A stretch of DNA of 34,500 nt from an uncultured bacterium (GTDB lineage: Bacteria > CAIWAD01). Made by a program: the position numbers and the translations under genes. Positions within the stretch are counted from its first letter, which is position 1. Every line of letters starts with the position of its first letter. Where the stretch lies: the NCBI GenBank assembly GCA_903910645.1, contig CAIWAD010000027.1:1-34500 (forward strand), in the 5' to 3' direction. The notes under the pieces are model-generated. The model was not told where the DNA came from. It searched no databases and saw nothing but the letters and a program-made list of their open reading frames with translations. Positions 6,447-33,354 of this stretch are shown here, piece after piece.

Positions 6447-8204
6447 ATGAAGCGCCTCTCAGTTCCCGAAGCTCGCCGCGCCCTTCACATGTCCCGGATC
6501 CTTCAACCACTCTTTCTGTGCAGCCTGATCCTTTTTACCGCTTGCGCCCAGGACGACACCGAAGAGGAAACCCAGAATGGCAGCCTGGCCGAATACACGC
6601 TGGAGCGGACCTTGTCCGATGAAGCCCAGCGCAAGACCATCGCGTTCGACGCACTGGCCTTCCTGACGGGAAATCTGGGCGACCAGTCCTTCCTGCCGCC
6701 CGGGAAAGTGGCCGACTTCAGTGGCTTTCAATACTTGCGCGACAACGATCCCACAGAAATGGGGCACAACACGGACTTCGTCACCATTGTGGCCTTCAAC
6801 ATCCTGCATCGCCTCTCCCAGGAACAGCTGGACCTGCTGGTGGCCGCCGCCCGGGATCAGGTGGAACGCATCAACGCCTTTGCTTATGCCCGCTTCCCTC
6901 TGCTGGACGCCTTCCGCCGCCAGCTTGAAGCGGACTATCCCACCACATCCACTGGGCTGGACAAAGAAGCCGTCATGGCCTGCACGGCGGATCTCTACCT
7001 GCTGGATGGTGAAATCAGCCTGCGACGGGCCCAGGTGATGGGCCAAGTCCTGCGCGGGCTGGACAATGCCCAGGTCCTGTCCTTGGACAGTCTGCTCAAT
7101 CTGGGTGGAGTGGGGAACTGGGAGCGCGGCTTGAGCGACCCCTTGTCCGGCCTGCACCTGGAGCACGATGAGAATGTGGCGGTGATGACCTTTGCCAGTG
7201 AGATGTGGAGCTGGTACGCAGGGTCCATCGAGGCCGACACCTACTTCTGTCCCGAGCGCCAGGGGACTTACTTCGGGTCCTTCTATCTGAAGGACTGGCC
7301 CGCCATGGGGAATCCGGATTACACCATTGATGAACAGCTTACCGCCAGGGCCGGAGAGGATTTTCTGGGCCTGCTCACCGCCAGCCAGCGCTCCCGTGTG
7401 GAAGGCTTGGTGGATCTGCAGCGGGATGAGCTGCTGGAACTGGTGGAAACCCGCCGGGCCATTGCCACGCTGCTGCGCGGCTACATGCGTGGAGAAGATG
7501 TGGACACCCAGGCGGTCCTCTCCTTGTCCGAGCATTACGGAGCCTTGGACGGGTCCATCTCATGCGAGTACGCCCTGGCATTCTCCCAAGTGGGGCGCGA
7601 CCTGGACGAAGCTCAACGCCAGAGTCTTGAGGCCCTGTCCAGCAGTTTGGGTTATCAGGCCAGCAGCGGGGCTTTCCTCTACTCGGAACCCATCGCCATG
7701 CCGGCCATTCCCAACACCGACTTCCTCTTCGGATCATCCGGGGACACCTTCACTTTGAGCAGTCCCGCTGTGGACGCCCAGGGCCTGCTTTCCGTGGATT
7801 GCACCTGCGATGGCGATGGCACTTCGCCAGCACTGGAATGGGCGGGACTTCCTGAAGCTTGCACCAGCCTGGCCCTCATCATGCATCATGTGGCCATCGA
7901 CAGCACCGTGCACTGTTACTGGATCCTCCACGACATCCCGGCGGACCTTGGCGCACTGCCGGCGGCCGTGACGGACATTGGCATTTGGGGGGCCAACACG
8001 GTGAACGGGCTGGCCGCCTATGCACCGCCCTGCTCCCAGGGGCCGGGCGCCAAGACCTACGAGATCACCTTGTATGCACTGTCGGCGCCAGTGGATTTGC
8101 CGCAAGCCCCCACAGAGGTGGATCGCGACGACATGCTGGCAGCCATGGCTGATCGCACCTTGTCCACAGCCGTCCTACAGGCCACTTATACCCGGCCGGA
8201 ATAG
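6447..8204 (+). CDS. Lipoprotein with duplicated helical domain and C-terminal PEBP domain
   Basis: 585 residues. The N-terminus has a lipoprotein signal ending LFTAC with the lipidated Cys at 33; ATG 6447 follows a GGGGGAAA site. Residues about 40-410 are an all-helical-looking region that I do not recognise. It contains two related segments, about 123-215 and 309-398, sharing L(S/T)..Q, LDG.IS, QV.R.LD.AQ..SL. From about 420 to the end the sequence matches the PEBP / YbhB-YbcL (Raf kinase inhibitor-like) family: SPALEW (460-465), VHCYWILHDIP, then a YAPPCSQGPG.KTYEITLYAL stretch. PEBPs bind phospholipid head groups or small anionic ligands; no enzyme activity is assured. The protein is probably held on the periplasmic side of a membrane. 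It stands alone between two terminators. Confidence 0.75.
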   Translation: MKRLSVPEARRALHMSRILQPLFLCSLILFTACAQDDTEEETQNGSLAEYTLERTLSDEAQRKTIAFDALAFLTGNLGDQSFLPPGKVADFSGFQYLRDNDPTEMGHNTDFVTIVAFNILHRLSQEQLDLLVAAARDQVERINAFAYARFPLLDAFRRQLEADYPTTSTGLDKEAVMACTADLYLLDGEISLRRAQVMGQVLRGLDNAQVLSLDSLLNLGGVGNWERGLSDPLSGLHLEHDENVAVMTFASEMWSWYAGSIEADTYFCPERQGTYFGSFYLKDWPAMGNPDYTIDEQLTARAGEDFLGLLTASQRSRVEGLVDLQRDELLELVETRRAIATLLRGYMRGEDVDTQAVLSLSEHYGALDGSISCEYALAFSQVGRDLDEAQRQSLEALSSSLGYQASSGAFLYSEPIAMPAIPNTDFLFGSSGDTFTLSSPAVDAQGLLSVDCTCDGDGTSPALEWAGLPEACTSLALIMHHVAIDSTVHCYWILHDIPADLGALPAAVTDIGIWGANTVNGLAAYAPPCSQGPGAKTYEITLYALSAPVDLPQAPTEVDRDDMLAAMADRTLSTAVLQATYTRPE

Positions 8205-8646: not shown

Positions 8647-9996
8647 ATGCAAATGGACGAGTATTGTCTTGGATCGCAGGCGGTTTGGCTGGACGGAGAG
8701 CTGCTTCCGGCGACGCTGGTAATACGGGGCGGCGTGATAGAAAGCGTGCTCTCAAGGGATGGGGCGGCTCCCGCCGGCTTGCCACTGCTGGACCTGGGCG
8801 AAGCCTGGATCCTGCCCGGCATGGTGGACACCCAGGTACACTTCCGTGAACCGGGATTTCCTGAAAAGGAGGACCTGGAGAGTGGCAGCCGCGCCGCCGT
8901 GGCGGGAGGCATGACAGCCTTCCTGGAAATGCCCAACACCAAACCCCTTACCGTGGATGAGGCCAGCCTGGCCGACAAAGTGGCGCGGGCCACCGGACGC
9001 TGCTGGTGCGACTTCGGCTTTTTCATGGGCGCCACGGAAGAGAACGCCCACCGCCTTCACGAATTGGAGGTCCTGCCGGGCTGTTGTGGTGTGAAGATCT
9101 TCATGGGATCCTCCACCGGATCCCTGCTCCTGGCGGATGATGACGGTCTGCGTCGGGCCCTGTCCCACGGACACAGCCGGGTGGCGGTGCACGCCGAGGA
9201 CGAGGGCCGCCTGCGCCAGTTGAAGGCCGCGTTGGAACAGGCCGACCACCCGCGCTGGCATCCCCGTCTGCGGGATCCCGAGTGTGCGCGTCTGGCCGTG
9301 TCGCGTCTGCTGGAGGCATCGGAGACCACGGGCCGCGCCGTGCACATACTTCACATGACCAGCGCGGAGGAGATGGAGCTTCTGCGCGCGCTGCCAAAGG
9401 GCGTGCTGGGCGGGCGCGTGTCGGCGGAGTTGACGCCCCAGCACCTGCTGCTGGAGGCACCGGCCTGCTATGAAGAGCTGGGGTGGCGTGCGGTGATGAA
9501 TCCGCCCATCCGCGAGGCCATCCATCGGGAGGCCTTGTGGGAGGCCTTGCGGGAGGGGAGCATCCACATCCTGGGCAGCGATCACGCCCCGCACACAGTG
9601 GAGGAGAAAGGCCGGCCCTATCCCACGGCGCCCAGCGGCATGCCGGGCACGGAGACCATGCTTCCATTGATGATGGATCAGGTTTTACGGGGGAGGCTTG
9701 GACTGAATCGCCTGGTGGCCCTGCTGGCGGAGGAGCCTGCGCGGCTGTTTGGGATTTCAGGAAAGGGCCGAGTGGCCCCTGGCATGCGGGCGGACTTCAC
9801 GGTGGTGGATCCCGGGCGGGAGTGGGCGGTGGACGAGGCGCTGCTGCAAAGCCGCTGTGGCTGGAGTCCCTTTCATGGCCAAAGGCTGAGGGGAAAGGTG
9901 TCCCACACCATTGTGCGCGGCCAGGTGGTCTACGAAAACGGACGCTTCGCAACAGAGGCCAAGGGGCGGCCACTTGACTTCGATCATGCCCACTGA
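8647..9996 (+). CDS. pyrC: Dihydroorotase (Bacteroidota-like subfamily)
   Basis: 449 residues of the amidohydrolase superfamily; would close carbamoyl-aspartate to dihydroorotate in pyrimidine synthesis. Visible features: DTQVHFREPG (61-70), MPNTKP (95-100), candidate carboxylated Lys K150 (GVKIFMGSSTG), H182 (VHAEDE), H233/H236 (HILHMTS), and SDHAPH (311-316). The usual HxH is QxH here (Q63, H65). From memory, dihydroorotases of Bacteroidota have D-D-Q-V-H-F-R-E-P-G at this place, so this is a subfamily trait rather than decay. The C-terminal CGWSPF.G also fits that group. No other pyr gene is nearby, so a related amidohydrolase role (hydantoinase or allantoinase-like) cannot be fully excluded. 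AAGGAGGA precedes ATG 8647. Confidence 0.88.
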   Translation: MQMDEYCLGSQAVWLDGELLPATLVIRGGVIESVLSRDGAAPAGLPLLDLGEAWILPGMVDTQVHFREPGFPEKEDLESGSRAAVAGGMTAFLEMPNTKPLTVDEASLADKVARATGRCWCDFGFFMGATEENAHRLHELEVLPGCCGVKIFMGSSTGSLLLADDDGLRRALSHGHSRVAVHAEDEGRLRQLKAALEQADHPRWHPRLRDPECARLAVSRLLEASETTGRAVHILHMTSAEEMELLRALPKGVLGGRVSAELTPQHLLLEAPACYEELGWRAVMNPPIREAIHREALWEALREGSIHILGSDHAPHTVEEKGRPYPTAPSGMPGTETMLPLMMDQVLRGRLGLNRLVALLAEEPARLFGISGKGRVAPGMRADFTVVDPGREWAVDEALLQSRCGWSPFHGQRLRGKVSHTIVRGQVVYENGRFATEAKGRPLDFDHAH

Positions 9997-10086
9997 CAAG
10001 CAGATCAGCTCTTTGTCGGCCCTGCTCGAGCTTGCACCTGCAGGGGGATTGTCAGACCTTTGGCCGTCACACAAGGGAAGCGACAC

Positions 10087-10680
10087 ATGACTCTGGCCAA
10101 TTGGCTTACCTCCGCCCGCTTGCTGCTCAGTCCTGTCTTCGTGCTGGTGTTCATGCAGGAGGGACTTTGGGCGCGCGTGGCCGCCCTGGCCATTGTGGTG
10201 GTGTCGGAACTCACCGACGCCTTTGACGGCCACTTGGCTCGTTCCCGTGGTGAAGTGACGGATTTCGGCAAGCTGCTGGATCCCCTGGCGGACAGTGTAA
10301 GCCGAATGAGTGTGTTCATCGCCTTCATGGCGGCCGGCCTGATCCCCTGGTGGATGGTGCTCATCTTCGTCTACCGGGACAGCCTCATCAGCACCATGCG
10401 CACCATTTGCGCCTACCGTGGTGAAGTGGTGGCCGCGCGCAGCAGCGGCAAGATCAAGGCCATCATCCAGGCCACGGTGATCATCGCCATCCTGTTGGGC
10501 CGCATTGTCAGCGTCATGTGGAGCACGGTCCTGCCCGAGCCCCTGCTGAACCAGGTGGCCTGGTGGCTGGTGCTGCTGGCGGCCCTTTACACCTTCTACA
10601 GCCTCTACGAGTATCTGGCCGCCAACTGGAGCGTTGTGTCCAGCGCCGGTCGCGGCAACGCGGGGCGTCAGGCCGCGTGA
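10087..10680 (+). CDS. pgsA: CDP-alcohol phosphatidyltransferase (PgsA-like)
   Basis: 197 residues, integral membrane. Residues 44-69 hold the complete family signature D(x)2DG(x)2AR(x)8G(x)3D(x)3D (D44, D47, G48, A51, R52, G61, D65, D69). These Asp residues bind the metal and the CDP-linked substrate. The start MTLANWLTSARLLLSPVFV is typical of PgsA, which joins CDP-diacylglycerol and glycerol-3-phosphate to give phosphatidylglycerol phosphate. Other alcohol acceptors are possible in this family. ATG 10087 has AAGGGAAG 7 bases upstream. The stop overlaps the HAD phosphatase start (GTGA). A HAD phosphatase beside a PgsA could suggest a phosphatidylglycerophosphate phosphatase, but the HAD subtype does not match the known ones. 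Confidence 0.86.
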   Translation: MTLANWLTSARLLLSPVFVLVFMQEGLWARVAALAIVVVSELTDAFDGHLARSRGEVTDFGKLLDPLADSVSRMSVFIAFMAAGLIPWWMVLIFVYRDSLISTMRTICAYRGEVVAARSSGKIKAIIQATVIIAILLGRIVSVMWSTVLPEPLLNQVAWWLVLLAALYTFYSLYEYLAANWSVVSSAGRGNAGRQAA

Positions 10681-11492
10681 CGGAGCGCTTGAAGCCTCTG
10701 TCCGCATGGACGAGCCAGCAGGCCGCCGCCCTGCGCATCCTTTTCACCGATATCGACGACACGGTCTCCAGCGAGGGCCGCATCACTGCGGAGGCCTACG
10801 CCGCGCTGTGGAAGGCCCAGACAGCGGGGCTGCGCGTGGTTCCGGTCACGGGAAGGCCGGCGGGCTGGTGCGACCATATTGCCCGCATGTGGCCGGTGGA
10901 TGGCGTTATTGGCGAGAATGGCGGTCTGGTCTTCCGGCTTGAAGGGGGGAAGATGGCTCGCCACTTCCTTTACGATGAAGCCACCCGGGCGCAGTTCCGT
11001 CAACGCCTGGAGTTGGTGAGGGAGGATATCCTGCGCCGTGTGCCGGGTGTGGGAATCGCCAGCGACCAGGCCTATCGCGAATACGATCTGGCCATTGACT
11101 TCTGCGAGGATGTGCCCCGTCTGCCCCTTGAGGAGGCGCGCCGCATCCAGGCCATTTTCGAGGAACACGGCGCCACGGCCAAGATCAGCTCCATTCATGT
11201 GAACGGCTGGTATGGGGACTTCGACAAGGTGCGCGCGGCCCAGGACTATGTGCGCCACTTCGCCGGCATGGATCCTGTTGCCCAGCGGGATCAGTGCGCC
11301 TTCAGCGGGGACAGTCCCAATGACGAGCCCATGTTCGCCTGGCTGGAGGAGAGCAGTGTGGGCGTGGCCAATCTTCAACCCTTCCTGCAGTTGCTGAAGC
11401 ACCATCCCGCATATCTGGCCCCTGCTCCCGGCGGCGAAGGCTTCGCCTGCCTCGTGGAGCGACTGGTCTCCCTGCGCAGCAGCCTTGGCTGA
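10677..11492 (+). CDS. HAD-superfamily (IIB, Cof-like) phosphatase
   Basis: 271 residues. Motif I is TDIDDT (nucleophile D25, general acid D27), motif II VTGR (T58), motif III Lys within DFDKVRAA (K184), motif IV GDSPNDEPMF (D212, D216). The cap between motifs II and III is of the IIB type found in Cof, sucrose-phosphate and mannosyl-3-phosphoglycerate phosphatases. The substrate is not predictable; a sugar phosphate or the PgsA product are candidates. GTG 10677 is chosen as start because it overlaps the pgsA stop by 4 bases; the longer open frame upstream lies inside pgsA. It is the last gene of this plus-strand group and converges with mtgA. Confidence 0.84.
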   Translation: MTERLKPLSAWTSQQAAALRILFTDIDDTVSSEGRITAEAYAALWKAQTAGLRVVPVTGRPAGWCDHIARMWPVDGVIGENGGLVFRLEGGKMARHFLYDEATRAQFRQRLELVREDILRRVPGVGIASDQAYREYDLAIDFCEDVPRLPLEEARRIQAIFEEHGATAKISSIHVNGWYGDFDKVRAAQDYVRHFAGMDPVAQRDQCAFSGDSPNDEPMFAWLEESSVGVANLQPFLQLLKHHPAYLAPAPGGEGFACLVERLVSLRSSLG

Positions 11493-11570
11493 GCCTGCTT
11501 GGACCAGAAGCGCTCTCCTGCGGCAGCTATTTATTCAATGATCATCATCCCAGTGAACGCAGAGGTCTCT

Positions 11571-11605
11571 TGTCAGCACGAATTCCCGCATTCGTGGGAG
11601 TGACA
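11571..11605. repeat. Interrupted palindrome between convergent genes
   Basis: CACGAAT (11577-11583) and ATTCGTG (11590-11596) pair around TCCCGC, and TGTCA (11571-11575) pairs with TGACA (11601-11605) outside it. There is no clear T-run. It may act as a weak two-way 3'-end hairpin for the HAD and mtgA transcripts, or be a REP-like element; only one copy was seen. Confidence 0.4.
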
Positions 11606-11637
11606 GCAGGGCCCGCTCCCGAGATGCCGGCCGGAGA

Positions 11638-12378
11638 TCAGGGTGCCAGGGGGCCCAAATAGGAGGAGCCGCCCAGCATGCGCATCTGGCCCTGGATCCA
11701 GGCGGCGCGCTGGCGCACATAGGGACCGGGGCGGGCGGCGCTGTACCTGCGTGGTGAAGGCAACACGGCGGCCAGGCGGGCGGCCTGGGCGGCGTCCACG
11801 CGATCCGGGCGGGTGCCCAGCAGTTCGTCGCAGGCGGCGCCCACTCCGTAGATGCCATCGCCAAACTGGGCCACATTCAGGTAGACCTCCAGGATGCGAC
11901 GCTTGGGCCAGGCTGTTTCCAGCATCACGGTGATGCCGGCCTCCAGACCCTTGCGCAACCAGCTGCGCCCCGGCCACAGGAAGAGGTTCTTGGCGGTCTG
12001 TTGGCTGATGGTGCTGGCGCCCCGCACGCGACGGCCACGGCTGTTGTGGCGAAAGGCCTTGCCAATGGATTCCATGTCGAAACCCCAGTGGTCGGCGAAG
12101 AGCTGGTCCTCTGAAGCCAGGACGGCCAGGGGCAGGTTCGGGCTCATGTCGTCCAGGTCCACCCAGCGGTGGCGCAAGGGCGGCGCGTCCTTACGAAACA
12201 GGGACTGCACCTGATGGCGGAGCATGAAAGTGCTGGTCAGGGGCGGTACCCAACGCATGCTCACCACCATCAGCGCCAGCAGGACAAAGAGTCCCAGAGC
12301 GCCTTTCGCCAGACGCAGGCCCTGCCGCCTGGCCTTCACCTTCCAACCCGTGGCGGGCTGGCCTGCAGATCGCTTCAT
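11638..12378 (-). CDS. mtgA: Monofunctional peptidoglycan glycosyltransferase MtgA
   Basis: 246 residues: one N-terminal membrane anchor (about 26-44) and a GT51 domain in the periplasm that polymerises lipid II into glycan strands. All GT51 motifs are visible: [14 protein letters not shown] with catalytic E90, [13 protein letters not shown] (119-131), RKGLE (142-146), [10 protein letters not shown] (159-168) and RLAAVLPSP. There is no transpeptidase domain, so this is the MtgA type and not a class A penicillin-binding protein. ATG 12378 overlaps the stop of the PHP-sensor fusion gene by 4 bases, and the upstream ATG at 12426 is inside that gene. Coupling to a signalling gene is unexpected for this enzyme. 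Confidence 0.92.
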
Positions 12379-15300
12379 GCACTCCCCAGAAAGTCGTAGC
12401 CAATCTTCTTGCGCAGGTCGCTCCATGCAGCCAACAGCCGCTTGATGGCCGCCTCCTCCGCGGCGCTCCAGTCGGATGGCGTGGTCCAGTTCACGGGATC
12501 CCGCCCTTCGCTCAAGGCCTGGGCCTGCCGATAGAGGCGCAAGCGCTGGATGCTCTCATAGTCCGCCGCCAGATTCTCATGCAGTTCCCGTCCCAGGCGT
12601 CCCAGCTCATGCAGGCGTGACAGGCGATCCATGGTGTGCGTCTCCACCAGCTCGTGGCGCAGGGCGTAAAGACGGCCGGTGTTCACCAGAGGAAGCAGGA
12701 CTTCCTTCAAATTCAGCGCCCGCGCGCCGCCTGGTGTGCTCATGGGCAGCAGGATGTTGCCGCGCAGACCCAGTCCGGGCCTGGACAGCAGCGTGTTCTG
12801 GGCAAGGTGTGGCAGGAAGGGGGGGTGCTGGCGGATCTCGGCGGCCACATGGGCGCGCAGTTCCCGCGTTAGGGCCTGGCAGGCCTCGCCTCCCGAACCC
12901 GCCACGGGCCGGAAATCGAAGGCGATGTTCAGGTCCAGCAGCTCCTGAGGTCCGGCTTCGCGGATCCAGCGGCTGAAGGAGTTCTTCCAGCCGTCCAGAC
13001 TCTGGTTCCAGGCGGGACGGGACGCCATTACGCCGCCCAGGCAGGGGCGATAGCCGGCCTGGGCCAGGCCTTCGCACACGCGCCGCCCCAACTCCAGGAA
13101 CCAGGCGGCGCATACCTCCTCGCGGCCCGCTGGAGGATTCTGATAGACAATGCCGTTGTCCTGGTCGGTGAGCAGGGTCTGCTCCATGCGGCCCTCGCTT
13201 CCCATGGCCAGGAAGGCGAAAGGCAACGGCGCCGGACCCAGATCCTCCAGCGCCAACTCAAGCAGGCGTTCCACCACCGCGTCGGCGGCGCTGCTAACCA
13301 GCCGGTTCAGGGCGCGCACACGCGTGCCGCTACCCAGCAGCGCATGCACCAGGCGTGGCAACCGCTCCGCCGCCTCGGCCAGGGCCACGGGACCTGACGC
13401 GTGGCGCAGGCTGTGGGTCAGGATCATGGTGCTGTAGTGGCGGAAGTGCACCAGATTGCGATCGCGCAACAGACCCACCAGACGACCGGCCTCATCCACC
13501 GCCACCAGATGGCCAATGCGGCGGTTCTGCATCTGCAGGATGGCCTCGTGCACCAGGGCATGCACGCTGATGGTGCTCAAGGGCGCGCTCATGATCTCGC
13601 GGACGGGGCGGCTGGGATCCAGGCCGCCGCCAGTGACGCGGGCGCGGAAATCGCGGTCGGTGACCAGTCCCACGGGCTCGCCCGTGTCGGTGACCACCAC
13701 CAGGGCGCTGGAATCCGCCAGCACCATGCGCCGGGCGGCCTCGGCGATGCTGCGTCCTGGTGGCAAGGTGGGCGCGGGTCGGATCGCCGGCGCCACGGGT
13801 TCCTGCAAGTGGAAAAGCGTGCTCTGCAATTGGCCGATCAATTCGTTGCGTCTGGCTTCCTCGCGCAGCTTGTCGCTAAGGTCCTCCAGCACGCCGTCGC
13901 ACAGCACGCGGCCCTCTTCCCTCACCAGCACTGCGAAGAGCCTCGCCTCCAGCCGGGATCCATCCATGCGTCGCAGGGCCAGGCGCGGAACCTCCACGCT
14001 GTCCTCGCGCTCCAGGCGGCCGCGCAGCTCCTGCCTGGTTTCCGCGTCTGCCACCTGCTCCAGCCAGTCCAGACCTTCAATGGACGCGTCGTCGGCCATT
14101 CCCAGCAGGCGGCGCAAGGCGGGGTTGGCCTCGCGCAGCAGGGCGCCATCCGTCCACTCGCTGCGGAACACTCCCATGCGGATGCTGCGTGTGAGTTTGC
14201 GGTAATGCACGCGGCTGCGCTTCAGGGCGGCGGCCAGCTCCTTGTGCCGACCAATGTCACGCGCCACCAGGATGAATCCCCGGCGTCCGTCGAAGGCGAT
14301 GGGCGTGGCGCTGAAGAGCACTTCCGGGCGTGTGTCGTCCAGTGCCCGCAGACGCGCCTCCAGCGATGGAGCGGCGGCGCCGCCATCCATCAGGGCCTGC
14401 AACCACTCCCGGGCACGCCGGTCAGTCGTGTTCTCATCCGGCAGAAGGTCCAGGGCATGGCGACCCGCCAGGGCCCCCGGCCCGCCGCCGCAGAGCAGTT
14501 CCATGGGGCGGTTGGCGTAGCTTACATCGCCGTCCAGCACCATCAACATGCCTTCACTGCCAGCCTCCGCCAGGCTGCGGTACTTCTCCCGGCTCTCCTT
14601 CAACTCCCGCTCGGCCTGGGCGCGGCGGGTCTCCAGCAGGAGACTTTGGCGCATGGCATAGAGCTGAAGCAGGCCCACCGCCAGCGCAATGCCCAGGCTG
14701 ATCCACACCAGACGCGTGCGCACCCTGGCAATTTCCGCCTGCACATCCTGGGTGTAGATGCCGGTGCCAATGACCCAGCTCCACGGGCGGAAGGCCTGCA
14801 CATGGGAGAGCTTGGGCACAATCTGATCCGGATCGTCCTTCCACTGCCAGTCGTAGCCCACATAGCCGGACTCGCGCTCCTGCACGGCCCGCACGAACTC
14901 CACGAAAACCAGGAAGCCCCGGGGATCCTTGAAAGTGGACAGGTCCTTGCCTTCCAAATCCGTGCGCCAGGGATGCATCACCATCACCGGCCGCATGTCC
15001 GTGATCCAGAAGTAGTCCTTGCCCTCGGCGCCATAGCGCATCAGGCGAATGCGTTCGGCGGCCTCGCGCTGGGCCTGTGCCAGGGGAAGGCGTCCCGCCG
15101 CGGCATCATCGGCGTATTCCTGCAGGATGCTGGCCGCCACCCGTGTCAGTTCGCGGATGGTCTCCTTCTTGCGCTCCAGCAGCTGCTCCTCCATGGCAGG
15201 GATGAGAGCGCCGAAGATGGCCCACAGGAAGAGCAGTCCCGCCAGCATGGCGGGCAGGCCGATGTGGAGCAGGAAGCTTCGCCAGTTGCCCGCGCCGGAC

Positions 15301-16052
15301 AGGCCCCTGCGTCCCCGCCCCTCCCGCAGGAACTCGCGCCCCGCCCAACCCAGGCGGCGGGCCAGGGGAAGCCAGTCCTCCTCTGGAATGTCCACGCCGG
15401 GGGAATCCGGCGGGAAGCCACTGCCCGGGCCGTGGAAGTCGCTGCCCGCGCCACAGAGCAGGGCGTGGCGCCTGGCCAGACCACGCAGGGCATGTCGGGT
15501 GGCATCGTCATAGGTGGCGTAATGGACCTCCAGACCATCCAGCCCCGCCTCCACCCAGGCGGGGAGGCGTTCCTCCAGTTCCTCCAGGCCTGACAGGCCG
15601 GCCAGGGGATGCGCCGCCAGGGTGATGCCACCGGCGGCATGCACCAGTCGGCACACCTCATTCAAGGGAAGAGCGCCCTGGCCCAGTCCAAGGGAAACGG
15701 CCCCTGGCGCTGGTCCGCCGCGCAGGGCACCCGTCACCCGGGACAGTTGGGGATGGCGGATGGAATCAAGGGCCAGCAGCAGCTCCGCATCGTGCTCATT
15801 GAAGTGGTAGGCCAGCACATGCAACACGCCCTGTGGCCCCAGCGCATCAATCTCCACACCGCTCACCACATGGACGCCGCTGGGCTCCAGCGCGGCCCGG
15901 AAACGCTCCAGTCCCTCCACGGTGTTGTGGTCCGCCAGTGCGGCATGCCGCACACCGGCGCGCACCAGCTCGCCGGCCAACTGCTCCGGACTCAAGGTGC
16001 CGTCGCTGAAATGGCTGTGGGTGTGCAGATCCACCGGCCGCATGCGGGCCAT
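12375..16052 (-). CDS. PHP phosphoesterase - Cache - PAS - PAS - CBS - CBS - DUF294 nucleotidyltransferase fusion
   Basis: 1225 residues in one uninterrupted frame. Domains in order: PHP (about 5-245) with the expected metal residues H10, H12, D17, H42, E67, H78, H148, D205, H207, closest in style to TrpH/YciV-type 3',5'-bisnucleotide phosphatases or 5'-exonucleases; membrane helix (261-283); periplasmic Cache domain (284-445, with [36 protein letters not shown]); membrane helix (447-466); PAS (488-603); PAS (612-728); CBS pair (757-870); DUF294 nucleotidyltransferase (895-1050) with [10 protein letters not shown] and D963/D965; DUF294 C-terminal region (1080-1220). Both ends should lie in the cytoplasm. 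ATG 16052 has GGGGAGGA; a longer frame to 16148 lacks a start site and would cross a hairpin. It follows the DUF485/ActP genes after a terminator and overlaps mtgA. The Cache ligand may be a small carboxylate. Linking ligand sensing to phosphoesterase and nucleotide transfer is inference. Confidence 0.85.
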
Positions 16053-16127: not shown

Positions 16128-16164
16128 TAAAATCCCGGCCCTCTCCACAAGAGAAGGCCGGGAT
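16128..16164 (-). terminator. Intrinsic terminator of the DUF485-actP operon
   Basis: ATCCCGGCC (16132-16140) pairs with GGCCGGGAT (16156-16164), with further pairing inside the 15-base interior. Read on the minus strand, the stem ends in a short T tract (16131-16128), so it fits the transcript coming from the symporter gene. Confidence 0.7.
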
Positions 16165-25108: not shown

Positions 25109-27550
<2,442 letters not shown>

Positions 27551-27741
27551 CACGGCGTGTGTCCTCCATGACCTATTGAGTTGTGTTGACATCGGGTTTG
27601 CGGCCGCACGGGGCGGGCGTCTGGCGCGGCACGCACAATCCCGCCGGGGCCGCCGTCCAGGGCGGGCCATCGGTAGCAGGCACGGGAATCGAGATGGGGC
27701 GTGACGTCGCGTCGGACGACAATTAGTGGCTTTTCCCCTTA

Positions 27742-27778
27742 ACAAGCAACAGGATCGCCTTCCGGGAAGGGTGCTTGT
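27742..27778. promoter_or_regulatory. Nested palindrome upstream of hppA
   Basis: CCTTCC-G-GGAAGG (27758-27770) is flanked by ACAAGC (27742-27747) and GCTTGT (27773-27778). The one-base centre suits a protein operator better than an RNA hairpin. It sits between the end of the 27788-33232 operon and a possible hppA promoter, so it could be an hppA operator or a poor terminator of that operon. Confidence 0.3.
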
Positions 27779-28617: not shown

Positions 28618-30795
28618 TCAGGGGATGAGCAGCAGTTTCACGCTTTCGACATCACTTGCCGTGCGCACCTGCGCCAGGTAAAGACCCGCCGGCAGATCGC
28701 CAAGATCCAGCGCCAGCCTGTGCGAGCCGGCCTGCAGCGGTCCGGTTGCCAACTCCTTGCATCGCCTTCCCGCCACATCCCACAGCGAGATGCGCGCCTC
28801 CGTCACGGCGTGCGGCAATGTGAAACACAGGCGCGTGCCGGGATTGCAGGGATTGGGCGCCGCCAGCAGGCCCAGGCGTCCTGGTCTTGGTGGGCCGGGA
28901 TGGATGCTCACCTCGTCAGTTCCCGCCACCAGGACAAGGTCGCCATTTTCCAGCGCCACCCAGCCCAGGCCCATCACGGATCCGTCCGTCACCCGGCGTC
29001 CCACGGACAAGGGCGCGGCGGGGAGGTTCAAATGGTCGCCGGATGAGTGCAATGTGCCCTCCCATGCGTTCACCCCCATTTCCGTCACGACGGGCGGATT
29101 GTCCCTGCCGGCGAAGAGGTAGAGGGCATTCACGCTGGCGCAGGTGAAGGGCCAGGCCTGGGCCTCCACGGAATCCGCCATCTGCCACGCGTCGGTGTCA
29201 TAGGGCGTGCACAGCAGGTAAAGGGAAGTGGCGGCCACCACGCCGCTCATTCCCTGCTCCCAATCCATGCTGATGTCCCGCACCGGGCCGGCCAGCTGGT
29301 GCACGGCCTCCAGCACGGGGGCCTGGGGGTTGCCCACATCCACCTGGCACAGACGCCCGTCCTCCAGGCCCACCCACAGGTGCTGGTCCGGGGACCAGGC
29401 GGCGCACAGGGGCGTGCCACCCAGCGCGAGCGTGCCCAAGTGACGCAGGAACCAGGGGCTGCGGTTGGCCTGCTTGATGGCGATGAACGCGTCCGGCGTG
29501 ATGTAGGCCACAAGGTCCTGCGGTCCCCAGCTGAGCAGCTTCACCGGGTCGGTGGGATGGATGCCCTCCAGGTGGAAGCCCTCGCCCTCCTCAGCGTAAT
29601 AGCGCAGGCCGGCGCCAAAACGGCAGCCTGCCAGAAGGCCGGCGCGCCAATCGCCGCCATCCACGGGCAGTGGCAGCCCCACGCCGGGCAATTCCACGGG
29701 CTGGGGATCCTCCCCCGGCCAGCCGACCCTTTCCGGCCAGTGAAAGCGGCGGAAGCCCTGCTGGCGGTCCAGGGCCCACGCGGTGGTGGCATCCCACTGG
29801 CCCTCTTCCCAGGAGAGGATTCGCGGGCGCGTGGCGTGCCGCGCCAGCAGCTCGGGCAAGGCCACTCCAGCGGATTCCCTCAACACATGTAGGCTTAGAC
29901 CGTCCGGGCCTTCGCCCACCAGCAAGCTGTCGCCGCGCAGATCCAGGGTCCGGGCGCTGGCCACGGTGCGCCAGCGTCCCACCAGTTGTGGGGCATCCGG
30001 CTGGGAGAAATCCGCCAGGGCCAGGCCACTGTCCCCCGCCGCCAGCACCCACAGGGCATCGCGCCACCAGCGCAGGTCCTGCACGGGGAATCCGGGTTGC
30101 CACCGCGTGCCCAGTGTGGGCGCCTGGATGTCCTGTGCGTGGATCACGCGCAGCCCCTGATCTCCCAGCGCACCCAGCACCAGGCCTCCACCCGCGTCCA
30201 TGGAAAGGGGTGCCTCCAACCACGGCACCTGGCCCGGCGTGGGCGGGAGATCTGACAGCACGATGGAGCGCAGGGTGTCGGCGGCCAGCACCCAGGCCAC
30301 GCCGCTGCGCAGGCAAAGAGCCCTGGGCGCATGGGAGAAGGCTCCCCACACCGGTGTCCAGATGGCGTCCTGACTGTCCAGGTCCAGGCTTCGCAATCCG
30401 CTTGACGAGGCGGCCAGCAAGGTGCCCTCTTCGCTGGCCAAGCGCGTGGCCACCCCGGCCTCCAGACTTTCCCAACTCTCCAGATCCAGCATGCGCAACT
30501 GGCCCGAGCTTCCCAGCAGGGCCGCCTGGCGCAAACCGGCACGCAAGTCAATCAGGGGCATGTCCAGATTCTGTCGGTGTTGCAGCAGCAGGCCCCAGGC
30601 AGGTTGACTCAGATCCAAGAGGCGCAGGGTGGAGTCGCAGGCCATGGCCACCCGGCCCGCCCCCGCCCAGGAAGCCTGCCCGGCATCGCAACCCGGATGC
30701 CGGTCCATCAGGATGGGCCACCATTGGGCTTGGGCGGGACCACTCAGCGCCGCCGCCAGGAGAGCTCCCACCAGGACACTTGGCTGCCAGTTCAT
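28618..30795 (-). CDS. Secreted beta-propeller (LVIVD-like) protein with FlgD/T9SS-type tail
   Basis: 725 residues. Signal peptide MNWQPSVLVGALLAAALSGP ending AQA, cleaved before QWWP. The body has repeated LR.LDL-type strands (for example LRLLDLSQPA, LRMLDLES, LRSLDLDSQ, LALADFSQPDAPQLVGRW) as in LVIVD beta-propellers, which usually bind other proteins or surfaces. The last 85 residues form an Ig-like tail: AAPNPCNPGT at its start, then LWDVAGRRCKEL, LPAGLYLAQV and a basic-hydrophobic end. This layout matches FlgD-like / type IX secretion sorting domains of FCB-group bacteria. The protein is probably on the cell surface or released. ATG 30795 has AGGAGA upstream and lies 10 bases after the M1-like gene, so both are in one operon. 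No ligand can be named. Confidence 0.75.
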   Translation of the reverse strand: MNWQPSVLVGALLAAALSGPAQAQWWPILMDRHPGCDAGQASWAGAGRVAMACDSTLRLLDLSQPAWGLLLQHRQNLDMPLIDLRAGLRQAALLGSSGQLRMLDLESWESLEAGVATRLASEEGTLLAASSSGLRSLDLDSQDAIWTPVWGAFSHAPRALCLRSGVAWVLAADTLRSIVLSDLPPTPGQVPWLEAPLSMDAGGGLVLGALGDQGLRVIHAQDIQAPTLGTRWQPGFPVQDLRWWRDALWVLAAGDSGLALADFSQPDAPQLVGRWRTVASARTLDLRGDSLLVGEGPDGLSLHVLRESAGVALPELLARHATRPRILSWEEGQWDATTAWALDRQQGFRRFHWPERVGWPGEDPQPVELPGVGLPLPVDGGDWRAGLLAGCRFGAGLRYYAEEGEGFHLEGIHPTDPVKLLSWGPQDLVAYITPDAFIAIKQANRSPWFLRHLGTLALGGTPLCAAWSPDQHLWVGLEDGRLCQVDVGNPQAPVLEAVHQLAGPVRDISMDWEQGMSGVVAATSLYLLCTPYDTDAWQMADSVEAQAWPFTCASVNALYLFAGRDNPPVVTEMGVNAWEGTLHSSGDHLNLPAAPLSVGRRVTDGSVMGLGWVALENGDLVLVAGTDEVSIHPGPPRPGRLGLLAAPNPCNPGTRLCFTLPHAVTEARISLWDVAGRRCKELATGPLQAGSHRLALDLGDLPAGLYLAQVRTASDVESVKLLLIP

Positions 30796-30805
30796 GGCTG
30801 CTCTC

Positions 30806-33232
30806 CTACTTCATGCGGATGCGGGCGGGCAGGCTGCCGCCCGGCGCGATTTCCATGCCCGTCACCCGCGCGGGGTCCACTGGCAAAAGAAAGCTCTCCT
30901 CCTGCCGAGTGCAGCGCAGGGAATAGCTTTCCAAGCCTTGATCATGGCGAAGCAGCACCGGGAGCACGGTCCCTGCGGCCACTGGACTTTCCCACGCCAC
31001 TTTCAGCGCCAATTGGGCACCCTGAAGAGTTTCCACTCGTCCACTCTCCACCTGGACCGTGGGCAACGCGCACTGCGTCCATTGGCAATCCAGCCACTGG
31101 CGGAGCACCGGCATGGTGCCGAAAGCACTGCCATCCAGCAGCTCCTCGCCCACCAGCAGGCCGCCCAGGGCGGATGCCAGATCGTCCAGGGGGCGGCGCG
31201 GGGACAGGGCCTCCATGCGCCGATCCCGCCAGGCCACCAGCAGGTCCAGGTAGAGCGCGTCGTCCAGGCTGGCCGGGTCCCGCAGTTGCCAGCGCAGTTG
31301 CTCCAGGGCCAGAACCAGGCGCCAGGCCAGGCGCTCCTGCAGGTCGTGGGAGGACCAGTCCCCTTCGGCGCGCTCCCCCAGCCATGGCAGGCTGGCGAAA
31401 GCCTTGGGCTGGAAAGATGCGGCTTCAGCCTTCAAGGCATCCTGGCGCAGCCGGGAGGGAAGCTCCGCTCCCGTGCGCATCTCCAGCAGGCGCAAGGCAC
31501 AGGCGCGGGCCGCGCCCAGGGAGAGCCAGCGGGCCTCCCCGGCAGACTCCATGGAAGGGGCCTCCCACCAGGCAAGGCAGAGCCTTTCCAACACGCGCAG
31601 GCGTGCGTTGGCATCGGCGGAGCGCAGGTCGCTGGCGGTGATCTCCAACGGCAGGAGGCCGGGGCCTTCCGCCAGGAGCAGACGGTCCCGCTCCTCGCTT
31701 TTCCCCAAGGCGCGACTGCGCTCCCACAGCCGCACCGGGAAGGCGGGCGCGCCCAGCCATTGGCGCATTTGTTCCGCCGCCCAGGCCAGCTCCGCTCCGC
31801 CGTCCTCGCCCAGCATGGCCAGGCCAAGACTGTCCTGGCCAAGGGCAAGGTCGCGGGGCTCCGCCGCTTCCTCATGGCCGGGCGGCCTTAGCTCACGATC
31901 TCTTTTCAACTCCAGGTTGGCGATGTCCCCCGTGTGGCGTGGCGGGGGCGTCCAGGCGGGGCGCGGACGGGACGCCTGCTCCGCAAGTGGCGTCCAGCAC
32001 AGGCTTAGATCCTGGGTAAGTTGTTCGGCATTGCCGGGACATGGCAAAAAGCGACGGGGGGCGCGCCCGTCCAGCAGGCCACTCCAGCGTTCACCCACAC
32101 CCAGGAGCTGCCGCTCATCCGTGACAGTGGTGGGCAGGGCGGGAACCCACCAGGGATGGCGGGGAAACCAATCCGCGGCAGAACAGGCCATTTGGCGTGG
32201 GCTGTCCTCGCGCACTCTCACCCGCTGGATGGATCCCTTCAATTCAAGAGTTGTGTTCTTCGCGGTCCCTGTTTCCTCCACCACCACCCAGGCGCCATCG
32301 CGGGCAAGCTGGGCCGGGGTGGATGGGCTTCCCGGCAAAGTCCACCACCATGTGGCCTTGTCCACTTTGGCCGCTGGATCCAGCAAGAGAAAAAGTGGGG
32401 CGGTCCCCTCCTTCAGCGTGGTCCGCCATGTCCACATCAGACGCTCGCCCTGGGAGTCCAGCTCCAGACTCTGGCCATCCACCGCACAGGCGGGCGCATG
32501 GAAGGTGGGAGCCAGCCAGGCCCCTTCCATGGGGCGTGACGACTGGGCCACCACCGCCTCGATGCGGCTGCCATCATGGAGAGGGCGCGACAGTCGCCAG
32601 GACTCACCTTTCATCCGCAGGTGCAGATCCCCGGGTTCGCAGCTCAGCCACAGGCATGCGTCCTCCTTCCAGGACCAAAGCAGGGGATTATCCGGATGCA
32701 GCCTTTCCAGTCCTTTGCTGGAGAAGAAAGGTCGCGGAGGCAGGAAGGGGAGGACAGGCCGTTGGCGTGCCCATGCGAGGTCTTTCAGCGCCAAGGGGAG
32801 GGTGGGAAGAAGCAGGCAGACGCGGCGCACCTTGTTTCGCTGCCAACGCCGGCCCAGGAAGGCGCGCGTGGACAATGCCTCCAGGCTGTCGGCCATGTCC
32901 AGCTTCAAAAAGCCGCTTCCCACCAACTCCACCGCCAGGATCGTGTCACTGTCCAGGGGAAGCGGAAGAATCCGGCATCGACCCTCCAGCCACTGCAGCT
33001 CGCCACAGGGAAGGGCAAGAGCGAAGGCACCCACAGGGCTCGACAGAGCCATGACGGGTCTATCCAGGCTCTCGATTCTCGCCACATGTTCCCGCACTGT
33101 CCAGGCGTGCAAGGGATGGACCAGGCAGGCCAGCAGGAACAGCAGACAGAGAGAGTGTGAGACGGCCCTGGTTTGCGCCCGTCGCCTCGGAGCGGCGGAT
33201 GGCACCCTGAAGCTGCGCGGGGAGCGGCACAT
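30806..33232 (-). CDS. Exported M1-peptidase-like protein lacking the zinc site
   Basis: 808 residues from ATG 33232 (GGAGG 4 bases upstream; the open frame to 33349 is rejected). A basic N-terminus and hydrophobic stretch (about 26-43) form a signal peptide. DWFPRHPWW (354-362) resembles the M1 N-terminal domain. In the catalytic part, ERLCLAWW (549-556) stands where M1 enzymes have HExxHxWW. Twelve residues later WLSLG (569-573) stands for WLNEG, with HExxH-x18-E spacing kept exactly. The three zinc ligands and catalytic Glu are E549, L553, L572 and R550, so hydrolysis is not expected. The helical region to about 690 and RQWLDCQWTQCALPTVQV (711-728) with beta strands after it fit the M1 C-terminal parts. 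Probably a binding or scaffold protein. First gene of a five-gene operon with the secreted propeller next. Family assignment is by eye. Confidence 0.6.
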   Translation of the reverse strand: MCRSPRSFRVPSAAPRRRAQTRAVSHSLCLLFLLACLVHPLHAWTVREHVARIESLDRPVMALSSPVGAFALALPCGELQWLEGRCRILPLPLDSDTILAVELVGSGFLKLDMADSLEALSTRAFLGRRWQRNKVRRVCLLLPTLPLALKDLAWARQRPVLPFLPPRPFFSSKGLERLHPDNPLLWSWKEDACLWLSCEPGDLHLRMKGESWRLSRPLHDGSRIEAVVAQSSRPMEGAWLAPTFHAPACAVDGQSLELDSQGERLMWTWRTTLKEGTAPLFLLLDPAAKVDKATWWWTLPGSPSTPAQLARDGAWVVVEETGTAKNTTLELKGSIQRVRVREDSPRQMACSAADWFPRHPWWVPALPTTVTDERQLLGVGERWSGLLDGRAPRRFLPCPGNAEQLTQDLSLCWTPLAEQASRPRPAWTPPPRHTGDIANLELKRDRELRPPGHEEAAEPRDLALGQDSLGLAMLGEDGGAELAWAAEQMRQWLGAPAFPVRLWERSRALGKSEERDRLLLAEGPGLLPLEITASDLRSADANARLRVLERLCLAWWEAPSMESAGEARWLSLGAARACALRLLEMRTGAELPSRLRQDALKAEAASFQPKAFASLPWLGERAEGDWSSHDLQERLAWRLVLALEQLRWQLRDPASLDDALYLDLLVAWRDRRMEALSPRRPLDDLASALGGLLVGEELLDGSAFGTMPVLRQWLDCQWTQCALPTVQVESGRVETLQGAQLALKVAWESPVAAGTVLPVLLRHDQGLESYSLRCTRQEESFLLPVDPARVTGMEIAPGGSLPARIRMK

Positions 33233-33334
33233 GCGGCCTCCAGTTGACATTCGGTGCCTGGTGAGCATAGCCCAGGGCCGTGGCTCCTGCAAGGGAGGAA
33301 TTCCAATCCTTGCCTCGCGTCTTGGCCGTTCAAC

Positions 33335-33343
33335 TGCTATGCT
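33335..33343 (+). promoter_or_regulatory. Extended -10 element before ssrA
   Basis: TGCTATGCT fits an extended -10 (TGnTAT..T) 11 bases before the mature tmRNA 5' end. No good -35 is seen. It would start a short 5' leader trimmed by RNase P. Confidence 0.4.
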
Positions 33344-33354
33344 CCCCACCGTTC

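Follow-up and report, generated by a model that had tools for sequence, protein, structure and literature searches.

A membrane-bound PHP-Cache-PAS-CBS-DUF294 fusion protein as a putative carboxylate-sensing writer and eraser of reversible nucleotidylation

Here we describe a gene from an uncultured bacterium of the lineage CAIWAD01 (assembly GCA_903910645.1), located in the first 34,500 nucleotides of contig CAIWAD010000027.1, which we analysed as a whole (the window). It encodes a single protein in which a PHP phosphoesterase part precedes a Cache sensor, two PAS domains, a CBS pair and a DUF294 nucleotidyltransferase (NTase), and it lies next to a gene encoding a sodium:solute symporter. 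We favour, with moderate confidence, the interpretation that this fusion protein is a membrane-bound, carboxylate-sensing writer and eraser of reversible nucleotidylation that controls monocarboxylate uptake. This interpretation draws on the domain architecture, the catalytic residues, the topology read from hydropathy, the conservation of the fusion, the synteny with the symporter and an interchangeable phosphoesterase slot; from these we infer the writer and eraser activities, their target and the direction of control. More tentatively, we propose that the protein is the single-chain PHP form of a class of transmembrane receptors for carboxylates, widespread and so far undescribed, that would control ActP-type uptake by reversible nucleotidylation. 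The eraser would come from four interchangeable, unrelated folds: PHP or DnaQ within the chain, and calcineurin-like, DnaQ or AP-endonuclease-like proteins as neighbours.

Results

Domain architecture and catalytic residues of the fusion protein

The gene is an uninterrupted single frame of 1225 codons on the reverse strand, from an ATG at 16052 to a stop codon at 12375. A good ribosome-binding site (AGGGGAGGA) lies immediately 5′ of this ATG and the homologues begin there, so a GTG at 16148 was dropped as the start codon. Every domain named here scored above its curated Pfam cut-off in this protein: PHP (PF02811; 3.3e-10, 41 bits vs a cut-off of 26.4), sCache_2 (4.3e-35, residues 293-443), PAS_9 (2.8e-12, two stretches), CBS (1.7e-18, two stretches), DUF294 (PF03445; 2.3e-47, residues 897-1035) and DUF294_C (PF10335; 1.3e-25). 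The intact PHP-Cache-PAS-PAS-CBS-CBS-DUF294 frame described in an earlier reading of the DNA (the sequence-only reading) was thus recovered in full. According to hydropathy, the only hydrophobic segments (about residues 258-288 and 444-467) flank the Cache domain. Since there are just these two, the PHP part and the C-terminal PAS-CBS-NTase part are predicted to lie on the same, cytoplasmic side of the membrane.

As that reading had anticipated, the PHP part harbours its metal residues. In addition to the profile match, we found the HxH...D, DH, E, H, H and DxH ligands of the superfamily (H10, H12, D17, H42, E67, H78, H148, D205 and H207), and all nine were invariant in 33 of 33 aligned fused copies (32 distinct genes, as L035 and G002 are two rows for one gene). 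A degenerate PHP domain was ruled out by these invariant ligands. The AlphaFold2 model of the PHP part (pLDDT 90.3) was best matched in Foldseek by RNase AM, BAD_1165 and Cv1693 (7ug9/9etk, 3e0f and 2yb1). RNase AM (YciV) and the Chromobacterium violaceum nucleoside 3′,5′-bisphosphatase Cv1693 are the closest PHP proteins by both sequence and fold, with identical metal ligands. However, both are free-standing, unlike the fused PHP, and have a shorter stretch between the two PHP halves. The cut-offs of the NCBIfam equivalogs for RNase AM (NF047791; 75.7 of 375 bits) and nucleoside bisphosphatase (NF041577; 102.2 of 400 bits) were not reached. By these profile scores, the PHP part is judged to be a different enzyme of a common superfamily.

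The catalytic site of the NTase was likewise found intact, with G951, S952, R955, E957, D963, Q964 and D965 invariant in 83 of 83 cores. The combination of PF03445 and PF10335 with the GS...D.D motif is that of DUF294/GlnD-GlnE-type NTases, and Anantharaman et al. class DUF294_C with the C-terminal domains of GlnD and GlnE (PMC3710099). In Foldseek, the AlphaFold2 model of the CBS-NTase part (pLDDT 89.1) was closest to GlnE adenylyltransferase domains (1v4a, 3k7d) and DrrA (6yx5), followed by CBS structures, several with bound AMP or ATP; GlnD was absent among the solved-structure matches listed. Among solved structures, GlnE and DrrA/SidM come nearest in fold to the NTase and helical domain combined, at 13-15% identity over the match; they lack CBS and Cache domains and a hydrolase partner of this type. 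GlnE puts AMP on protein tyrosines. The same modification is performed by DrrA (PMC3710099).

We aligned the Cache domain to PscD (5g4y) and Adeh_3718 (4k08), which gave the pocket residues Y347, W349, H360, F383, Y400, W402 and K414. The propionate-contacting pocket of PscD consists of Y90, W92, H103, F126, Y143, W145 and K156 (PMC5062169), and all seven residues are present in the fusion protein, as in the sCache_2 domains for C2/C3 carboxylates of the chemoreceptors PscD and McpP. The output of those receptors is a chemotaxis domain, whereas here it is an enzyme. The earlier suggestion of an outside ligand acting through the Cache domain is supported by this match to a known acetate/propionate/pyruvate sensor. 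H360, F383 and K414, which lie outside the patterns used to retrieve the loci, are conserved in 83 of 83 cores.

The fusion is conserved and recurs in other lineages

The two remaining genomes of the genus also carry the complete fusion, with identities of 72% and 62%. The lineage is tiny: the gene is full length in 3 of 3 genomes of the genus and was not found in the 2 other genomes, of 5 for the phylum. One sister genome, L035 (DYSB01000003.1), is labelled Acetofilamentum (Bacteroidota) at NCBI, probably wrongly; the compared genomes show a tiny separate phylum.

Furthermore, we scanned genome contigs with the Cache-to-DUF294 core, which returned 80 loci (422 candidate relatives in all). In 30 of these 80, an in-frame PHP fusion occupies the same N-terminal position, and the others have the same core without PHP. 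One of the 30 is the sister genome L035 (G002), leaving 29 from other lineages. According to record titles, in which labels of metagenome-assembled genomes (MAGs) may be wrong, the fused loci belong to Chloroflexi, Armatimonadetes/WS1/Zipacnadia, Verrucomicrobia, Omnitrophota, Gemmatimonadetes and Acidobacteria/Holophagaceae, with one Deltaproteobacteria bin grouping with Holophagaceae. Because the fusion recurs in frame in the sister genomes and in these 29 loci, it is not an assembly artefact; full-length orthologues in independent assemblies exclude an assembly or frameshift origin, and the homologues are not always split near residue ~250, as the sequence-only reading had considered. In one Anaerolinea MAG (L045), PHP and core are in different frames. 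We did not accept this locus as proof of separate genes, because its PHP frame continues out of frame into the stretch coding for the transmembrane (TM) segment; it may represent a frame error or overlapping genes.

The Cache-PAS-PAS-CBS-DUF294 core is itself a large family, widespread in many phyla. It had been overlooked in the sequence-only reading, according to which CBS-DUF294 proteins normally have either a domain binding cyclic nucleoside monophosphates (cNMP) or no sensor. That reading also took the N-terminal PHP layout to be unique; instead, the architecture occurs widely, and cNMP-CBS-DUF294 with a DnaQ-like exonuclease is already known as a sister system. In a Spirochaetes locus (L094), a second Cache-PAS-CBS-DUF294 protein of 856 amino acids with one PAS domain (9618-12188) lies on the opposite strand beside the first.

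Four unrelated folds occupy one putative phosphoesterase slot

Exactly one putative phosphoesterase class was found in 76 of 79 core loci, and in none were there two. The partner is PHP in 30 loci (29 fused and the frame-broken L045), calcineurin-like in 28, AP_endonuc_2 in 12 and DnaQ in 6, including L094, where DnaQ was recognised at motif level only and without a Pfam match. These four folds are mutually unrelated, and the slot is interchangeable among phosphoesterase-like enzymes. The median distance from core to partner is 88 nt. Calcineurin-like partners form four sequence clusters, lying 5′ on the same strand, 3′ convergent, 3′ on the same strand or after the symporter. The AP_endonuc_2 TIM-barrel partner is 3′ convergent, and its consensus keeps a set of metal-type residues that we take to be endonuclease IV-like. 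At L109 (Bacteroidales), a DnaQ exonuclease (RNase_T 1.9e-15, DEDDh residues present) is fused at the exact position of PHP, and the first TM helix comes directly after it. The two opposite chemistries of the sequence-only reading gain indirect support as a pair, from the four unrelated hydrolase folds in the slot and the one N-terminal fusion replacing PHP; the activities themselves we infer.

Since the partner queries came from the counted loci, the exclusivity count is partly self-referential, and for this reason flanking open reading frames (ORFs) were checked independently with Pfam. At the sensitivity of these queries, the partner sequences gave no further match in the 747 kb of DNA around the loci. 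In the 108 ORFs scanned around PHP-type loci, Pfam recovered none of the three alternative partner families in two or more ORFs (single matches were unlisted). The 3-Mb genome of the window has 14 matches (calcineurin 6, RNase_T 3, PHP 5, AP_endonuc_2 0), so partner-type neighbours are rare by chance. Two of the three loci without a partner (L081 and L084) are Elusimicrobia contigs that end within the symporter, before the partner position of their relatives.

In a tree of the core only, 12 partner-class changes were needed, compared to 46.6 with shuffled labels. L109 nests within the calcineurin-type set (approximate likelihood ratio test, SH-aLRT, 99), and four Myxococcota DnaQ loci nest within the PHP-fused set, beside the genus of the window (SH-aLRT 95-96). 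The tree thus favours a replacement of PHP by DnaQ inside the PHP clade, which we do not claim as shown, because a single PHP clade was not rejected in the approximately unbiased (AU) test (p 0.41 and 0.17).

The core lies beside an ActP-type symporter

The gene upstream of the fusion gene encodes a symporter (Pfam SSF 2.5e-69) with NCBIfam matches to MctC (2.9e-138, 461.6 of 670 bits) and ActP (7e-125, 417.5 of 750 bits). Below these equivalog cut-offs, it is classed by its profile scores as a close relative of ActP/MctC with a putative substrate assignment. Relatives 57-86% identical to it lie beside the core in most loci, and in most PHP-fused loci the symporter is just upstream, usually within about 100 nt (59-86% identity). 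The window has a strong terminator-like hairpin between the two genes, and the gap is shorter in most homologous loci, so that expression of symporter and fusion gene may be uncoupled here.

Table 1. Features of the fusion gene and its upstream neighbour in the window
Feature	Position	Strand	Basis
Fusion gene, 1225 aa: PHP-TM-sCache_2-TM-PAS-PAS-CBS-CBS-DUF294-DUF294_C	12375..16052	-	Pfam, full-length orthologues
PHP phosphoesterase part, residues 1-255	15288..16052	-	Pfam, conservation, AlphaFold2 model, Foldseek
sCache_2 sensor, residues 293-444, flanked by hydrophobic segments 258-288 and 444-467	14721..15176	-	Pfam, PscD/Adeh_3718 alignment
PAS pair with linkers, about residues 485-739	13836..14599	-	PAS_9 and sensory_box, two stretches each
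CBS pair, residues 758-870	13440..13779	-	Pfam; adenosine-nucleotide-bound CBS structures among best folds
DUF294 nucleotidyltransferase, residues 897-1036, motif GSxGRxE...TDQD	12945..13364	-	Pfam, conservation, Foldseek
DUF294_C, HEPN-like substrate-binding helical domain, residues 1078-1221	12388..12821	-	Pfam, grouping in PMC3710099
Sodium:solute symporter upstream of fusion gene, ActP/MctC-like, 652 aa	16303..18261	-	Pfam, NCBIfam, synteny
Hairpin resembling a terminator, 15 pairs followed by a T-rich tail, between the symporter and fusion genes	16132..16164	-	Consensus match only

Other genes of the window

A monofunctional transglycosylase gene (11638-12426) shares about 50 nt with the 3′ end of the fusion gene, and this gene order is retained in both sister genomes. 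In a 585-aa frame at 6447-8204, a phosphatidylethanolamine-binding-protein domain is confined to the last 135 residues, and the other 440 matched no Pfam family. Two large adjoining frames of 725 and 847 aa on the reverse strand (28618-30795 and 30806-33349) are candidate genes without a Pfam match at 0.001; their neighbour is an H+-pyrophosphatase gene (25109-27745).

Discussion

In the mechanism that we favour, the periplasmic Cache domain would bind a C2-C3 monocarboxylate (acetate, glycolate, propionate or pyruvate). The signal would pass via the second TM segment and PAS, with PAS and CBS relaying and modifying it and CBS probably reading adenine nucleotides. DUF294 would then move a nucleoside monophosphate (NMP) onto a target; by analogy with GlnE and DrrA, this would most likely be the side chain of a protein. 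PHP would hydrolyse the resulting phosphodiester, taking the NMP off. The likeliest target would be the neighbouring ActP-type symporter or a small DUF485/DUF4212 partner, so that uptake would follow supply and energy state. In other bacteria, the eraser would be a separate or differently fused enzyme.

GlnD, the PII uridylyltransferase/uridylyl-removing enzyme, likewise combines a GlnD/GlnE-type NTase, a metal hydrolase and domains for regulation by small molecules in one chain, and the writer/eraser logic is common to both. However, the eraser of GlnD is an HD domain and its sensor ACT, whereas the fusion protein has PHP and periplasmic Cache with PAS and CBS; moreover, the latter is membrane-bound in a monocarboxylate-transport context, while that of GlnD is nitrogen. 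Pfam matched neither HD nor ACT in the fusion protein, which therefore differs from the GlnD set of NTase, HD and two ACT domains. In our best reading, based on this comparison, the protein would work like GlnD and is not GlnD.

The cNMP-CBS-DUF294 systems (PP_0354/PP_0353, PFLU5625, PA3232-PA3235) have the same CBS-DUF294-DUF294_C catalytic part as the fusion protein, the same ActP-type/DUF4212 symporter context and an adjoining hydrolase partner. In contrast, their sensor is a cytoplasmic cNMP domain, not Cache-PAS, and their hydrolase a separate DnaQ-type exonuclease, not a fused PHP; Pfam matched no PP_0354-type cNMP domain in the fusion protein. Among six sampled annotated Pseudomonadota records, cNMP-CBS-DUF294 adjoins a 3′-5′ exonuclease in five, with DUF4212-SSF in three of these and acs too in two. 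The Pseudomonas putida pair PP_0354 (CBS) and PP_0353 (exonuclease) is an already known, uncharacterised acetate/pyruvate-regulated type (PMC9927547), the P. aeruginosa genes adjoin actP-yjcH (PMC9927547; PMC9765439), and Sepulveda and Lupas mention a nucleotidylation prediction for PFLU5625 (PMC5715377). In the literature searched for DUF294/COG2905 function, we found no activity for DUF294/CBS proteins. At four Myxococcota/Deltaproteobacteria loci, a second DUF294-type protein lies beside the Cache-core gene (L036, 2136-3959; L044, 4024-5952; L055, 1957-3567; L059, 3646-5271). This protein is cNMP-CBS-DUF294, with the cNMP domain found in L036 and DUF294_C alone recognisable in L059, and a DnaQ gene adjoins both. 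Possibly, one eraser is common to two writers there.

Hernandez et al. reported that deletion of pp_0353 impairs growth of P. putida on pyruvate, that deletion of pp_0354 does not, and that deletion of actP-I causes the same defect as the pp_0353 mutation (PMC9927547). According to our model, the transporter would stay modified and off without the eraser, and would stay on without the writer. A defect of pp_0353 alone, like that of actP-I, would be expected if it is the loss of erasure, and not that of writing, that turns the transporter off. In our own reading, the writer/eraser model would account for this asymmetry without further assumptions.

Several observations weigh against this interpretation. 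RNase AM and nucleoside bisphosphatase, which are the closest known relatives of the PHP part, use RNA or nucleotides, not nucleotidylated protein. For Cache-DUF294 proteins and their partners, we found no biochemistry in the literature. The pocket residues Y347, W349, Y400 and W402 belonged to the Cache patterns used for locus retrieval, which biases their conservation in the set, and the self-reference in the exclusivity count has to be considered as well. The AP_endonuc_2 family includes epimerases, and the nearest solved relatives of this partner are MJ1311 and tagatose (sugar) epimerases; its chemistry is therefore the least certain and its assignment as a phosphoesterase tentative. No partner was recognised at L077. 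In 15 of the 79 loci, of which some are on short contigs and others have long flanks, SSF was not found, and more than one symporter type pairs with the core, so that no single target site is indicated.

Three other explanations were considered. The hydrolase partner might degrade RNA or short oligonucleotides, controlling uptake or central-carbon mRNAs, with DUF294 acting elsewhere. Hernandez et al. proposed mRNA decay for PP_0353 (PMC9927547), the DnaQ relatives are nucleases and the closest solved PHP folds are those of RNase AM, a 5′-3′ exoribonuclease. However, the calcineurin-like and AP_endonuc_2 proteins of the slot do not belong to the typical mRNA exonucleases, the physical fusion of both PHP and DnaQ to the same NTase indicates a shared substrate, and the PHP part scores far under the NCBIfam cut-offs for RNase RNM (75.7 of 375 bits) and nucleoside bisphosphatase (102 of 400 bits), which makes this explanation unlikely in our view. 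We give slightly less credence to a second-messenger module, in which the NTase would make a small nucleotide signal or nucleotidylate a metabolite and the phosphoesterase would break the product down. A fusion of synthase and hydrolase is a common second-messenger layout, Pol-beta-fold NTases such as kanamycin NTase yield small-molecule products, and every partner fold could hydrolyse nucleotide diesters. The fold neighbours of the NTase are nevertheless protein-modifying enzymes, a HEPN/GlnE-like substrate-binding domain is present, and no separate receptor gene was seen recurring beside the core loci.

Finally, PHP could be merely structural or regulatory, with DUF294 working alone and reversing itself by phosphorolysis as GlnE does. 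Some polymerase PHP domains are partly structural, the N-terminal domain of GlnE is an adenylyl-removing NTase, and GlnE is a fold match here (1v4a). We regard this as very improbable, given nine metal ligands invariant across phyla in all aligned copies and the unrelated hydrolases with active sites that fill the slot elsewhere.

The repeated swap of the hydrolase partner indicates what this partner must do. DUF294/CBS proteins are widespread, and the writer/eraser model suggests how the so far unexplained pyruvate phenotype of PP_0353 in P. putida may arise. If confirmed, it would define an undescribed, widespread signalling class, a GlnE/GlnD-type NTase with a paired hydrolase being an already known kind. 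If true, central-carbon-acid transporters would be controlled by nucleotidylation under direct sensing of extracellular carboxylates.

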